A stretch of 5,289 nucleotides of DNA from Bryobacteraceae bacterium (GTDB lineage: Bacteria > Acidobacteriota > Terriglobia > Bryobacterales > Bryobacteraceae). Where the stretch lies: contig JACMLA010000049.1 of the NCBI GenBank assembly GCA_014379815.1, positions 1-5,289 of the forward strand. Direction: 5' to 3'. Positions 1 to 5,289 of this stretch are shown one piece after another. The position numbers were made by a program, and so were the translations under genes. Position 1 is the first letter of the stretch, and the number at the start of each line of letters is the position of its first letter. The notes below the pieces were generated by a model. It saw only the letters and a list, made by a program, of their open reading frames with translations, was not told the DNA's origin and did not search any database.

Positions 1-1
1 C

Positions 2-475
2 AAACGCATCCAGCGCTCCGAAGCGTACGAATCCGCGCTATTCACCGGCTCCATGGAAGGCAGACAGCAGAAGCGCAAGAAGCCCATCAAGGTCACCAAG
101 AACGACGACCTCGGGTGCGGAATCATGATCGGCGACGAACAGATCCAGCTCAGCTGGGACAATCTCGACCGCTACCGCAGAAACGCCTGGACAGACTACA
201 ACCGCGCCATCACCCAGCTGTCAAAAATGCAGAAGGAACGCAAGAGCGCACCAGTCGAAGAACTGAAGAAGTCAGAAAGGGAAGAGCGAGCCGAAATACG
301 CCACCGCGAATACCTGAAACGGACCGTAGCCCCACTGGTCCGATGGCGGAATAACCCCGCAAATGCCGACAAATTGGCTTCCTTCCGTCAGGACGAAACA
401 GGAGCAATCGTCCCGGTCGACAAAACACCCGCCACACCGGACACGCAACCAATTCCAGTGCCGGAGGCCGCATAA
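2..475 (+). CDS. Hypothetical charged protein, 3' portion (5' end outside the window)
   Basis: I do not recognise this gene. The frame has no stop from base 2 to the TAA at 473-475. An ATG at 53 would give 140 residues, but the 17 codons before it read as ordinary protein (KRIQRSEAYESALFTGS), so the gene probably begins upstream of the window. The visible part is soluble-looking, with no signal peptide or membrane segment. Counting from the ATG at 53, residues 8-16 are rich in Lys/Arg. Residues about 40-95 are a Lys/Glu/Arg-rich helical stretch, possibly coiled coil. The last 20 residues are Pro/Thr-rich and look disordered. Base use is unlike the genes to the right: the coding strand is poor in T and rich in A and C, which may mean a different origin or expression class. 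It ends about 200 bases before the next gene and is probably not in the same transcription unit. It could be a nucleic-acid-binding or mobile-element accessory protein, but nothing seen here proves that. Confidence 0.6.
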   Translation, partial: KRIQRSEAYESALFTGSMEGRQQKRKKPIKVTKNDDLGCGIMIGDEQIQLSWDNLDRYRRNAWTDYNRAITQLSKMQKERKSAPVEELKKSEREERAEIRHREYLKRTVAPLVRWRNNPANADKLASFRQDETGAIVPVDKTPATPDTQPIPVPEAA

Positions 476-611
476 CACGCAGAAGTGAAGTAGAACGAGT
501 CACGAAAACGGGCCTTCGCGCAACCCCACTGAATCCCTCGCGCCACAATTGGAGCAAGTCTGAGCAGCGTTCGCCAGCACGTAAGACTGGGCCTTCGGTC
601 GCTCGCGCTCT

Positions 612-620
612 TGCTACACT
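612..620 (+). promoter_or_regulatory. Candidate extended -10 promoter element for the operon
   Basis: The sequence TGCTACACT carries the TGn extension followed by TACACT, a one-mismatch match to the sigma-70 -10 consensus TATACT and two mismatches from TATAAT. Transcription would begin near 626-628, about 50 bases before the ATG at 676. No good -35 box lies at the expected spacing (the bases around 592-597 are CCTTCG), which is tolerable for an extended -10 promoter. It is placed correctly to drive the three rightward genes. The call rests on a short motif and position only. Confidence 0.35.
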
Positions 621-643
621 AACCGATTCCGTTGGCTTGAGCT

Positions 644-647
644 GGAG
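644..647 (+). promoter_or_regulatory. Possible Shine-Dalgarno GGAG that would favour a GTG start at 655
   Basis: GGAG sits 7 bases before an in-frame GTG at 655-657. The ATG at 676, which fits the family's expected N-terminus better, has no recognisable Shine-Dalgarno sequence. If this site is used, the nucleotidyltransferase gains seven residues (MRKLFLL) before MRITKG. The match is only four bases long, so it is weak evidence. Confidence 0.25.
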
Positions 648-675
648 CGCCCGTGTGCGAAAGCTCTTCCTACTT

Positions 676-1545
676 ATGAGAATCACAAAGGGATTGATTA
701 CAGCTGCCGGAGACCGCCAGCGCAGAGTTCCGTTACAAACACTCGTCGATGTGGATGGCACCACCCGAACGGTCCTGGCAACACTTGTGAATGAGTTCGT
801 GGGCGCGGGTGTCGCAGAGATCTGCATCGTGGTCCCTCCAGGGGAGCAGGAAGAGTACGCGAACGCCGTCCCGGCCAGGGCAGGGAAGCTTACTTTCATA
901 GAGCAGCAGGAGTTTGGAGGCTATGCCGGGGCAATCTGGTGCGCTAGGGACTATATTGCGGGCGATCCCTTCCTCCACCTTGTCGGCGATCACATTTACA
1001 TAAGTAGCCATCGCGTAAAGGAAGGGCCTGGTAGCGCGGGCAGGCTCGTGGAGCTTGCTGCTTCGGAAGAGTGCTCAGTGTCCTGTGTACAGCCTACTCA
1101 TGAGAGTTCCATCTCACGGTTCGGAGTCATCGGAGGAACTCCTATTGCTGGCCGACACTTGCTATACGAGATCGACTCAGTGCTTGAGAAACCGACACCG
1201 ACTCTGGCCGAACAGCGGCTGATTGTTCCGGGACTTCGTGCTGGTTATTACCTTGCGTTCTTCGGTATGCACGTGCTGACACCGGCATTCCTGACGATCT
1301 TGCAGGACCAGATACAGACCAATCCATCCGGTGCTTCTGTGTCCGGAGCTCTCGATACACTCGGATCCAGAGAACGATATCTGGGATGGCAAGTCTCCGC
1401 GCAGCGGTATGACCTCGGCCCCCGCTATGGACTCCTCACTGCACAACTGGCACTGGCACTGGCTGGCCCGGACCGGGACGAGGTCCTGTCCACTCTCGTA
1501 GGCCTTCTCTCAGTCCAAAATGCGGTAGAGAAGTCTGATCGTTAG
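676..1545 (+). CDS. GalU-like sugar-1-phosphate nucleotidyltransferase, divergent signature
   Basis: Probable cytoplasmic enzyme of the GT-A-fold nucleotidyltransferase family, nearest to GalU, which makes UDP-glucose from UTP and glucose 1-phosphate. It has 289 residues from the ATG at 676, close to normal GalU length. Visible features are an N-terminal strand and glycine turn, KGLITAAG (5-12); GYAGAIWCARDYI (82-94), matching the GalU GLGHAVLCA segment; LVGDHIY (102-108), with Asp105 at the expected metal/nucleotide position; EKP (171-173), the usual sugar-phosphate-site motif; and RYDLGPRYGLLTA (244-256), like the GalU C-terminal YDTG...GY. The GxGTRxxP...PK signature is replaced by AAGDRQRRVPLQTLVD, so the loop is shorter, its second Gly is gone and the usual Lys is Gln or Thr. 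ATG 676 was chosen because it places the first strand as in the family. GTG 655 and TTG 637 are in-frame alternatives. The next gene starts 15 bases later. The substrate cannot be assigned, and galU is not used as a symbol for that reason. Confidence 0.8.
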   Translation: MRITKGLITAAGDRQRRVPLQTLVDVDGTTRTVLATLVNEFVGAGVAEICIVVPPGEQEEYANAVPARAGKLTFIEQQEFGGYAGAIWCARDYIAGDPFLHLVGDHIYISSHRVKEGPGSAGRLVELAASEECSVSCVQPTHESSISRFGVIGGTPIAGRHLLYEIDSVLEKPTPTLAEQRLIVPGLRAGYYLAFFGMHVLTPAFLTILQDQIQTNPSGASVSGALDTLGSRERYLGWQVSAQRYDLGPRYGLLTAQLALALAGPDRDEVLSTLVGLLSVQNAVEKSDR

Positions 1546-1560
1546 AAACTGCAGAAGACC

Positions 1561-4500
1561 ATGAGCGAACTTGTCCGCATCATCACCGCCGATAACGCGG
1601 CTGTTCGCGATCGCTCTCTGGCGAGCATCTGCGATCAGGCGAGTTTGGCGCAACTGCTGGAGGAAGCAGCGGAGCTGGAGAAGTTCCGGCGCCGGAGCGC
1701 AAACCTGTACGAGAGGGTGCGTGCACTCTTCTTCATCTCTGCAATTTTCCGCTACTACATCCCTGCAAAGGTACAGCAGCACAGGGCTGGCCACATCCCC
1801 TACGAGGGCCACGTCCACTTACTCCATCGCCGCTTCGAAGAGGCGGTCACTACGTTTGGCCGAACTCTTGACTCGGAAGGGCCGACCGAAGCGATCGCCA
1901 GTGCACTTGCGGCCGCCTATCGTGGTCTGGCATTCCAGACTTTGTCGGATCAGGTCCGCAAGAGCGTACGTTCCACCCGCGGAAATCAGTGGATGTTTCG
2001 TATGGGCAACGTGCTCGATTACCCTCTGGTGCTGCGCGAAGAATTGCTGTGCCCGCAGAGCGGTCTCTTTCCAGTTCTTGTCGAATCGACTCCGGTGCGA
2101 ATGGATCTTAGCCACAGTGCGTGGAGCGACATCTTTTTCCTTGGGATGGACTACCCCGAAGGTGCTCGTGTTCTGAACATCTCGGTCGACCTGGCGGTCC
2201 GTGGACGCGGGTCGCAGGTACCCCGGCCTCCGATTCAGACGTTTTTCCGTGTCATCGATGAACCGGTTTTGCGGCTGGTCAGTGTGGATCTGCAAACTCA
2301 CGCGAATATCAACACGATCGAGGAAGTCTTCGATTTTGGTCGGGATTACCTCGGACTGTTGAAAGCCGCGGTGATCGCTTCCGGAATCGTGCCAACCGGC
2401 CTCGAAGGTTGCAGTCAGTCTCTGGCTTCTCTCCTTGCGCGCCTCACGGGCCGGTCAGGGCACGGCATCGAAGTTGTGAGCGCCGTCAACGATATTCCCA
2501 AGGGATCGAGGCTGGCCGTTTCAACCAATCTCCTGGCCAGCCTGATTACGGTGTGCATGCGTGCCACCAGCCAGGTCCGGTTGCTCGCAGGCTCACTATC
2601 GGAGAGCGAGCGCAGGCTGGTTGCGGCACGCGCGATTCTGGGCGAGTGGCTCGCCGGATCTGGTGGAGGCTGGCAGGACTCCGGCGGTGTCTGGCCCGGT
2701 ATCAAACTGATCGAAGGCGCAATCGCCGAACCGGGTGATCCCGAGTTTGGTGTCAGCCGGGGACGACTGCTTCCTCAGCACCGCATACTGGACACAAGCG
2801 TGATTGCCGCGCAAACCCGGCTGAGTCTTCAGGACAGCCTGGTTCTGGTACACGGCGGGATGGCGCAGGACGTCGGGCCCATACTCGAGATGGTCACTGA
2901 GCGGTATCTGTTGCGGTCGGAAACCGAATGGCAGAGCCGTAAACAATCCCAGCAGATCCTTCGTGAAATCCTTGCGGCACTTTCCGATGGCGACGTGGAG
3001 AAGACTGCCGGCCTGACACATGCCAACTACGCCGGTCCGATACAGTCCATCATTCCGTGGGCCGGAAATTACTATACGGATCAGCTGATCGCCAGTATGC
3101 AGCAGAAGTTCGGTACCTCGTTCTGGGGCTTCTGGATGCTCGGCGGTATGGCGGGCGGTGGTATGGGTTTTGTCTTCGATCCTGCTGTCAAGCCGGCGGC
3201 AAAGGAAGCTCTGGCAGAGGTGATGCTGGAAACGAAGAAGCACCTTGAGGACGCCGTGCCATTCGGCATGGATCCCGTGGTCTACGATTTTGCCATTAAC
3301 GAGAAAGGAACGCATGCAGAGTTTCTGGCTGGGCCGGAAGCTTTGCTTTGTCCGTCCTATTACTCGCTAAGGGTGCCTGGGCTTCTGCGTCAGGAGTTGC
3401 GGACTCTGGCTCCTGCGCAACGAACGGAACTGGCCGCGTTCGGGACAGCAGCCCGATTCCGGCCTGAGTTCTCCGTAGCAGCGTCAACCCTCGTGGAACA
3501 TCTGCTTCCCCGGGATTCTGACCAACAAGGAGAACACGGCCAAACTCTGGATCAGATTCTCGACCGATACGGCTTCGACCGGGTGCAGCACGAGGATATA
3601 AGCGCGGACCTGAAAAGCGGGCGCGTCGGTCTTGCTCAGAATGCGTTGCCAAAATCAAGCCGGATCGAAGATGCGCCGCAGGGTTCATGGTCTGACGGCC
3701 GGTCAGCGATCGCCGAAAGCCTCGTCCAGCTTGGGAAAGAAGCACTGCAAAGTGGATCTGCCGGTTTGTTAACTCTGGCTGGCGGTGCCGGGAGCCGCTG
3801 GACTGGCGGTGCTGGAGTCGTGAAAGCTCTCCACCCGTTTTGCCGTCTCGGAGCCGCCTACCGGACGTTCCTGGAAGTTCATCTGGCGAAGACCCGCCGA
3901 ACCTCCAGAAACTGGAACGTCCAGGTTCCGCACATCTTCACCACCAGCTACCTGACTCACGAACCCATTCAGACTCACCTGAATCTCACCCGGAATTACG
4001 GCTATGAGGGCCATGTCTACGTGTCGTCGGGCCGCAGCATCGGCCTTCGAATGGTCCCCACCTCGCGCGATTTACGATTCCTGTGGGAGCAAACACCGCA
4101 GCAGACTCTCGACGTTCAGAAGCAAAAGGTACGTGAGAGCGGGCACGCTGCCTTGATCGCATGGGCGGAAAAAGCCGGAGAAGCCTCCGATTACCGGGAC
4201 AACCTTCCCTCGCAGTGTCTTCACCCGGTGGGGCACTGGTATGAGTTCCCCAACATGCTTTTGAACGGGGTACTCAAGCTGGCGCTGGATCAGAACCCAG
4301 GTCTGCGTCATCTGCTTCTGCACAACCTCGACACACTTGGGGCCGAGCTGGATCCCGGTCTCCTCGGGATGCACATGCAAAGTGGAGCGGCCCTCACGGT
4401 TGAGGTAATTCCCCGCACAGCCGACGATCACGGCGGTGGACTCGCCCAGGTCGATGGTCGCCTGCGCCTGGTAGAAGGTCTCGCGATGCCTGACGAGCGT

Positions 4501-4887
4501 CTTGAGTTCGACCTGTCGTTTTACAACTCGGCGACCATGTGGCTGGACATCGATCGCGTCTTGACTGTATTCGGTCTGGACCGGGACAGCCTTGGGGACA
4601 AGGCCCGTGTATCCCAGGGAGTCCGCGAAGTTGCTTCCCGCATGCCGACCTACATCACAATCAAAGATGTGAAGAAGCGTTGGGGACGGGGACAGGAAGA
4701 CGTCTTCCCGGTTTCGCAATTTGAGAAACTCTGGGGTGACATGACGGCTTTATCCGATCTGCAATCGAATTACATCGTGGTTTCCAGATTTCGTGGGCAG
4801 CAGCTAAAACAGGTTTCTCAACTCGATGGCTGGCTCCGGGACGGCTCGGCAGCCTGGGTAAACCGCCTTTGCGACTGGATACCCTGA
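1561..4887 (+). CDS. Large fusion: fucokinase-type GHMP kinase domain plus UDPGP-type pyrophosphorylase domain
   Basis: An intact 1108-residue cytoplasmic-looking protein, with no signal peptide or membrane segment. Residues 1-170 are mostly helical and unrecognised. Residues about 171-560 resemble fucokinase-type GHMP kinases: TPVRMDLSHSAWSD then ARVLNISVDL (177-211, motif 1), IPKGSRLAVSTNLLAS (312-327, degenerate motif 2), GSGGGWQDSGGVWPGIK (366-382, with probable catalytic Asp373) and MLGGMAGGGMGF (526-537, motif 3). Residues 570-720 are a linker I cannot assign. Residues about 730-1108 resemble UDP-glucose pyrophosphorylases: LAGGAGSR...K (739-755), PVGHWYEF (889-896), HNLDTLGAELD (921-931), RTADDHGGG (952-960), FYNSATMWLDI (987-997) and DVFPVSQFEKLWGD (1047-1060). 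A bifunctional enzyme (sugar to sugar 1-phosphate to NDP-sugar) is inferred by analogy with Fkp/FKGP, in which the pyrophosphorylase part comes first and belongs to another family. Several active-site positions are altered, so activity is uncertain. The ATG at 1561 has a weak AGAAG upstream (1553-1557). The stop lies 4 bases before queG. Confidence 0.75.
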   Translation: MSELVRIITADNAAVRDRSLASICDQASLAQLLEEAAELEKFRRRSANLYERVRALFFISAIFRYYIPAKVQQHRAGHIPYEGHVHLLHRRFEEAVTTFGRTLDSEGPTEAIASALAAAYRGLAFQTLSDQVRKSVRSTRGNQWMFRMGNVLDYPLVLREELLCPQSGLFPVLVESTPVRMDLSHSAWSDIFFLGMDYPEGARVLNISVDLAVRGRGSQVPRPPIQTFFRVIDEPVLRLVSVDLQTHANINTIEEVFDFGRDYLGLLKAAVIASGIVPTGLEGCSQSLASLLARLTGRSGHGIEVVSAVNDIPKGSRLAVSTNLLASLITVCMRATSQVRLLAGSLSESERRLVAARAILGEWLAGSGGGWQDSGGVWPGIKLIEGAIAEPGDPEFGVSRGRLLPQHRILDTSVIAAQTRLSLQDSLVLVHGGMAQDVGPILEMVTERYLLRSETEWQSRKQSQQILREILAALSDGDVEKTAGLTHANYAGPIQSIIPWAGNYYTDQLIASMQQKFGTSFWGFWMLGGMAGGGMGFVFDPAVKPAAKEALAEVMLETKKHLEDAVPFGMDPVVYDFAINEKGTHAEFLAGPEALLCPSYYSLRVPGLLRQELRTLAPAQRTELAAFGTAARFRPEFSVAASTLVEHLLPRDSDQQGEHGQTLDQILDRYGFDRVQHEDISADLKSGRVGLAQNALPKSSRIEDAPQGSWSDGRSAIAESLVQLGKEALQSGSAGLLTLAGGAGSRWTGGAGVVKALHPFCRLGAAYRTFLEVHLAKTRRTSRNWNVQVPHIFTTSYLTHEPIQTHLNLTRNYGYEGHVYVSSGRSIGLRMVPTSRDLRFLWEQTPQQTLDVQKQKVRESGHAALIAWAEKAGEASDYRDNLPSQCLHPVGHWYEFPNMLLNGVLKLALDQNPGLRHLLLHNLDTLGAELDPGLLGMHMQSGAALTVEVIPRTADDHGGGLAQVDGRLRLVEGLAMPDERLEFDLSFYNSATMWLDIDRVLTVFGLDRDSLGDKARVSQGVREVASRMPTYITIKDVKKRWGRGQEDVFPVSQFEKLWGDMTALSDLQSNYIVVSRFRGQQLKQVSQLDGWLRDGSAAWVNRLCDWIP

Positions 4888-4891
4888 AGTC

Positions 4892-5289
4892 GTGAGGCAG
4901 ACACCCGAAACAGTCGTAGTAAGGCTGGCGCAGCAATGTGGTTTTGAGCTCGCAGGCATCGCACCGGCTCTGCCTGTGGAACCGGACGCCACACAATTTC
5001 TTAACTGGGTCTCGCGTGGTCTCGCGGGACGTATGAGCTACCTTACCGATCGCAGAGCAGACCTGAGGACCGATCCCCGCTCGCTTCTACCAGGTGCGCA
5101 GACGGTAATCTGCCTCGGTCGTCTGTACAACACACCCGAGTCCGGACCGATTGCCAGGTACGCGCGCTCGGAGGATTATCACGAGACGCTCCGAAGGGAT
5201 CTCGAGGTCCTGGTAGTTGCACTGCAGCAGGAGTTTGGCCCGTTCGAGTACAAGCTTTGCATCGACACGGCTCCACTGCTGGAACGTTC
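4892..5289 (+). CDS. queG: Epoxyqueuosine reductase QueG, N-terminal part (cut by the window edge)
   Basis: QueG is a cobalamin- and [4Fe-4S]-dependent reductase that converts epoxyqueuosine to queuosine in the wobble position of tRNAs with GUN anticodons. It acts on tRNA in the cytoplasm. The 132 visible residues match the N-terminal half: FLNWVSRGLAGRMSYL (36-51), the family's W...G..G.M.YL segment; DPRSLLPGAQTVICLG (61-76); IARYARSEDYHETLRRDL (87-104); and CIDTAPLLER (123-132). In that last motif Asp125 corresponds to the Asp proposed as proton donor in characterised QueG. The Fe-S cluster cysteines and C-terminal repeats lie beyond the right edge (QueG is usually about 350-380 residues). 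The start is a GTG at 4892, 4 bases after the upstream TGA. There is no clear Shine-Dalgarno sequence, so translational coupling is likely. The next in-frame ATG (5032-5034) would remove conserved sequence. Confidence 0.93.
   Translation, partial: MRQTPETVVVRLAQQCGFELAGIAPALPVEPDATQFLNWVSRGLAGRMSYLTDRRADLRTDPRSLLPGAQTVICLGRLYNTPESGPIARYARSEDYHETLRRDLEVLVVALQQEFGPFEYKLCIDTAPLLER

Follow-up and report, generated by a model that had tools for sequence, protein, structure and literature searches.

Whether a single protein could carry a free sugar all the way to an activated sugar is the question raised by a long gene in a Bryobacteraceae bacterium (GenBank assembly GCA_014379815.1, contig JACMLA010000049.1, positions 1 to 5,289; this whole stretch is called the window). 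An earlier note, made from the sequence, had read the gene as a fucokinase-type GHMP kinase joined to a UDPGP-type pyrophosphorylase, with the kinase first. Comparison of the predicted structure with known folds, together with profile searches, supported these folds for both halves, and Pfam and structural matches bore out the reversed order. Sequence and predicted structure together suggest that the fusion probably makes a nucleoside diphosphate (NDP) sugar from a free sugar by two-step chemistry. The kinase half would phosphorylate the sugar at C1 with ATP, and the UDPGP-type half would then join the sugar-1-phosphate to a nucleotide from a nucleoside triphosphate (NTP), with release of pyrophosphate. 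A gene that we term U lies upstream and encodes a GalU-like protein, and the gene pair would form a self-contained nucleotide-sugar salvage module, fed by a sugar released from glycans. U may act with the fusion, whether as a subunit that assists or regulates it or as a further nucleotidyltransferase whose specificity has changed.

The C-terminal half scored above the Pfam UDPGP (PF01704) cut-off (50.8 versus 22 bits), and no fucose pyrophosphorylase family appeared among the Pfam matches of the fusion at E-values up to 10, which supports placing this half outside that family, as had been proposed. Its structural and sequence matches were of the UGP and UAP types, with 13-22% identity to UDPGP-family structures in structural alignments, and it shares the fold and catalytic residues of UDP-glucose and UDP-N-acetylglucosamine (UDP-GlcNAc) pyrophosphorylases. 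It differs from bacterial UDP-glucose pyrophosphorylases (UGPases) by an insert around residues 830-880, and from the UDPGP family in being joined to a kinase. Residue conservation was counted over the window and 80 loci, 81 sequences in all. The active-site residues K135, G227, H228, N256, D258, E307, N329 and K403 of AnUGP (excerpts of PMC10470519) correspond to K755, G891, H892, N922, D924, E972, N989 and K1083, respectively, each found in 81/81; the phosphate and metal residues (K135, H228, D258 and K403) are therefore all kept. The first Gly position of the nucleotide-binding (NB) loop holds G in 35/61 and A in 26/61 sequences.

The N-terminal half was matched by the Fkp model PRK13412 at residues 173-555 (E 9.7e-21), with a score of 73.2 that did not reach the cut-off of 721 bits, and by the Fkp kinase in a PDB sequence search (E 1.6e-8). 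The Pfam GHMP models gave no match to the N-terminal half, which was recognized through the Fkp model and the PDB search. The GHMP fold was evident in the predicted structure, with structural scores of 34.0 for Fkp, 33.6 for the heptokinase WcbL and 28.0 for the galactokinase 1s4e. VIA-align paired model residues 1-589 with Fkp residues 488-949 as one range, which gives the first and last aligned residues only. In Fkp, catalysis involves D762 as the base, R592, a metal held by S719/S720, and E751 as a second carboxylate, and fucose is contacted by W599, D601, T602, Q761 and D762 (excerpts of PMC11982464). Mapping through HMMER alignments placed R592, W599 and D601 at R180, W188 and D190, S719 and S720 at S321 and T322 with the hydroxyls retained, and E751, Q761 and D762 at E362, Q372 and D373, each invariant in 81/81. 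A kinase-half profile was searched against open reading frames (ORFs) 250 aa or longer from the 12 Bacteroidota loci L108-L119 plus 3 others. Besides members of the fusion family, L118 among them, it matched the sole full Fkp (L108, E 5e-16) and, at E 2e-4, a shorter GHMP-type kinase (L111) that lacks the Trp.

The pairing with U was examined at two levels. In 77 of the 80 loci where adjacency was counted, U lay upstream of the fusion and shared its strand; the gap measured -17 to +301 nt in 73 of these 77, and the two genes overlapped by 4 nt in 20. At 2 of the 3 loci without U, the upstream DNA is absent from the sequence. Joint presence was counted in 150 genomes of the Bryobacteraceae, the family of the related locus L001, where the fusion was found in 67, U in 67, and both in 66 (66 of the 68 with either). 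Distances among U proteins correlated with those among fusions (r 0.82 over 76 pairs), and 0 of 999 permutations gave a value as high. U is predicted to adopt the GalU fold, and its score against the GalU equivalog TIGR01099 (66.6 bits) did not reach the cut-off of 326.8. The conservation of U, in which most ligand residues are invariant, gave no support to the idea of a plainly dead protein. Replacement of GalU by U is not the rule either, as 136 of the 150 genomes had a match over the GalU cut-off; at E 1e-40 a GalU match was present in 146, and two of the four genomes without one (G267 and G291) are carriers of the pair.

Several observations weigh against the proposed salvage route, and they are considered here together with the rival explanations. 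An L-fucose-like sugar (L-fucose, L-galactose or D-arabinose) is tentatively the likeliest single class of substrate, somewhat ahead of any other, and the fucose-type contacts of the kinase, judged from sequence, would be the only hint to it. It is also quite possible that the two reactions proceed unchanged on a sugar that is not fucose-like, such as D-galactose, L-arabinose, a uronic acid or a heptose, to give a UDP-sugar. This is a variant of the proposal, compatible with its chemistry, and plants offer an analogue in sugar-1-kinases and UDP-sugar pyrophosphorylase (excerpts of PMC3938481). The UGP and UAP types of the matched pyrophosphorylases favour it, as do the tie between WcbL and Fkp in structural score and the replacement of Fkp T602, which contacts the C3-OH, by Ile (I191) in 81/81. 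Residues 187-189, including W188, have a predicted local distance difference test score (pLDDT) under 50, and because this loop is poorly predicted the match of W188 to W599 is one of gapped sequence alignment. The retention of the Fkp stacking Trp and Asp/Gln contacts in 81/81 argues for a fucose-like sugar, as does the lack of the Trp in L111. Glycoside hydrolases (GHs) were compared within the Bryobacteraceae, with the two genomes holding one gene of the pair excluded and with statistics that ignore kinship. GH29 (PF01120) occurred in 66/66 carriers versus 70/82 non-carriers (Fisher p 0.0006) and GH95 (PF14498) in 45/66 versus 32/82 (p 0.0005), but the controls rose too, GH43 (PF04616) from 17/82 to 32/66 in carriers (p 0.0004) and GH78 (PF17389) from 36/82 to 44/66 (p 0.008). 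PF01120, PF14498 and PF17389 are taken by us to be GH29, GH95 and GH78. Mean copies among the matches listed, with at most 12-16 matches scored per genome, were 5.41 versus 3.32 for GH29, 1.70 versus 0.52 for GH95 (the largest ratio), 1.29 versus 0.44 for GH43, and 1.68 versus 0.65 for GH78. Since all four families are enriched, controls included, the carriers appear to be glycan degraders in general; a fucose-specific co-occurrence did not emerge. The pair is linked to GH43 and GH78 no less than to GH29, which likewise favours a sugar outside the fucose-like class. The neighbourhood was equally silent about the sugar: 365 neighbours were collected at 78 loci, and the scan of 114 of the 140 nearest ones (positions -1 and +1; 130-600 aa) yielded 120 Pfam families, of which the most frequent occurred 4 times, with no recurrent neighbour except U and no transporter, epimerase or glycosyltransferase pointing to a sugar.

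The chemistry itself meets objections as well. The P-loop of Fkp, GSGLGTSS, is replaced by GSRLAVST in 81/81, a departure from the GHMP consensus in which Fkp G715 becomes R317 in 81/81. Together with the failure of the Pfam GHMP models, this would suit a half that has lost kinase activity and serves as a sensor or scaffold, with the pyrophosphorylase alone working. We consider such a loss improbable, because no variation is seen at the equivalents of R592, S719 (the metal ligand), E751 and the base D762, and because, of the four parts compared, mean pairwise identity is highest in the kinase half (0.692, against 0.664 in the UDPGP half and 0.497, the lowest, in the linker). In the UDPGP half, the position of AnUGP N331 (991) is variable, and the uracil-binding AnUGP Q198 has no aligned partner; we therefore name the nucleotide only as an NTP. 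The profile alignment leaves that region unaligned, and the columns nearest Q198 hold S822 in 61/61, P at 823 in 49 and G824 in 59/61. The association with U is not without exception, as none was found in the 982 bp upstream of the fusion at L024 or in the 2.6 kb upstream at the divergent L122. U might, rather than help, itself catalyse nucleotidyl transfer to the sugar-1-phosphate that the fusion uses or to a different one, a real possibility given its fold, but it differs from GalU and YngB in its NTP loop and glucose-contact Asp. The G-x-G-T-R loop is altered to G-x-x-Q-R in most (Q at the Thr position in 40/42), the position of the uridine-binding YngB Lys28 (position 26 in U) is variable (R 26, P 5, Q 3 and others among 42 sequences), and that of the glucose-contacting YngB Asp134 is His in 42/42. 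ATP-dependent sugar kinases are practically irreversible, and a fused kinase would have no purpose if the enzyme ran in reverse in vivo to split NDP-sugars with pyrophosphate. Such a reversal is very hard to credit, even though UGPase is reversible in vitro (excerpts of PMC10470519). A bolder form of the salvage proposal, which we regard as unlikely, is that the two proteins form an enzyme complex in which nucleotides are handled at three sites and the kinase uses a novel, arginine-bearing P-loop. This complex would make an NDP-sugar new to Fkp-type salvage, with the diverged GalU relative U gating or completing the reaction. Its nucleotide would not be UTP, or not only UTP, because the uracil Gln seems to be missing.

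Plant FKGP has the same domain order as Fkp. In Fkp the pyrophosphorylase is N-terminal and the kinase follows (excerpts of PMC11982464). The fusion described here shares with Fkp the fucokinase-type GHMP kinase domain, whereas its order is reversed, with a C-terminal pyrophosphorylase that belongs to the UDPGP family, its P-loop is altered, and it has the partner gene U. Zebrafish DrGKUP, a glucuronokinase/putative pyrophosphorylase, likewise joins a GHMP sugar-1-kinase to a nucleotidyltransferase, there for UDP-sugar salvage, but its nucleotidyltransferase comes first and is of a short bacterial type, and its kinase is a glucuronokinase (excerpts of PMC3938481). The different domain family and order suggest an independent fusion event, in agreement with the earlier note. 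A 2025 survey favours a single origin of FKP fusions (excerpts of PMC12732313), and in its main text no word starts with UDPGP, Acidobacteri, Verrucomicrobi or Planctomycet (PMC12732313). Searches of an open-access library brought up no paper that, judged by title and abstract opening, describes a kinase-first UDPGP fusion, its P-loop or its partner protein, which is not proof that none exists. Three features go beyond what had been noted before: a GalU-like neighbour, a changed P-loop, and the preservation in sequence of residues that contact fucose in Fkp.

The fusion family is conserved, widespread, misleadingly named and apparently unstudied. The generic name UTP--glucose-1-phosphate uridylyltransferase, which the earlier note had expected, was carried by 7/120 among the matches listed; 6/120 were named galactokinase/mevalonate kinase-like predicted kinase and the others were hypothetical or unnamed, so that for the 13/120 named members the name covers one half only. 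If the proposed function is true, scattered environmental bacteria, richer in glycoside hydrolases than their kin, keep a route from free to activated sugar that pathway reconstruction overlooks. The same metabolic fusion would then have been built with another pyrophosphorylase family, and the protein would be a candidate one-pot biocatalyst for NDP-sugars.

At E-values up to 1e-20, the fusion was found in 2/199 genomes of the Acidobacteriota (phylum of L001), 67/150 of the Bryobacteraceae, 18/194 of the Verrucomicrobia (phylum of L012), and 15/199 of the Planctomycetes (phylum of L036). The named loci are spread patchily over ten phylum labels: the Acidobacteriota, Planctomycetota and Verrucomicrobiota that had been anticipated, and also Chloroflexota, Bacteroidota, Ignavibacteriota, Rhodothermota, Armatimonadota, Lentisphaerota and Kiritimatiellota. 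Most loci come from metagenome bins, in which foreign contigs can occur. The window clustered with L001 (Bryobacteraceae) and L002 with the highest Shimodaira-Hasegawa-like approximate likelihood ratio test (SH-aLRT) support. The 56-69% identity seen between phyla had suggested that horizontal transfer is frequent, but this was not supported, because the 78-row tree is mostly phylum-coherent, with 10 label changes where the minimum possible is 9; Chloroflexota show 6 changes and Planctomycetota 3.

Some members have unusual forms. On a Hymenobacter volaticus plasmid (L107, NZ_CP095065.1, 13999-18327) the pair is plasmid-borne; the fusion is unannotated and its reading frame is broken up into several, and U is annotated as a sugar phosphate nucleotidyltransferase. 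L122 (662-4855, minus strand) is a divergent relative at 39-45% identity with the kinase and UDPGP halves in one frame and a single stop between them, either a split form or a broken gene. Genome G007, that of L029, holds a second fusion copy in three overlapping pieces (contig C161, 4302-6734) and a full-length fusion on another contig. In G758 (phylum of L074), a full Fkp (L108) occurs along with a second frame, of 1134 aa, that has a match to the kinase part of Fkp (contig C66, 16004-16642); this frame probably belongs to the fusion family, in which case Fkp and the fusion would coexist.

Coordinates of the features in the window, numbered from its first nucleotide (residue numbers are those of the fusion protein)
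Feature	Position	Strand	Remarks
ORF, 140 aa	53-475	+	no credible family; Pfam matches only sub-threshold
Partner gene U, GalU-like nucleotidyltransferase, 289 aa	676..1545	+	conserved ATG at 676
Fusion gene, putative sugar-1-kinase / UDPGP-type pyrophosphorylase, 1108 aa	1561..4887	+	
Fusion, N-terminal helical region, residues 1-165	1561..2055	+	
Fusion, fucokinase-type GHMP kinase domain, residues about 166-595	2056..3345	+	motifs R180, W188, D190, E362, Q372, D373
Kinase domain P-loop	residues 313-322		contains GSRLAVST
Fusion, linker, residues about 596-718	3346..3714	+	
Fusion, UDPGP-type pyrophosphorylase, residues about 719-1108	3715..4884	+	
Pyrophosphorylase motifs	NB loop 739-755 with K755; G891-H892; N922-x-D924; E972; N989; K1083		
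queG-type epoxyqueuosine reductase gene, start	4892-5287	+	4 nt past the fusion stop

ORF and family scans gave four gene-like stretches in the window, all on the + strand. The mechanical ORF of U runs from a TTG start at 637 to 1545, and the fusion starts 15 nt past the stop of U. The scan for RNA families returned none at gathering score, and promoter and terminator counts were not above those of shuffles. The queG-type gene had one weak match among the 80 loci, with 31% identity and about 6 kb from the fusion (L018).
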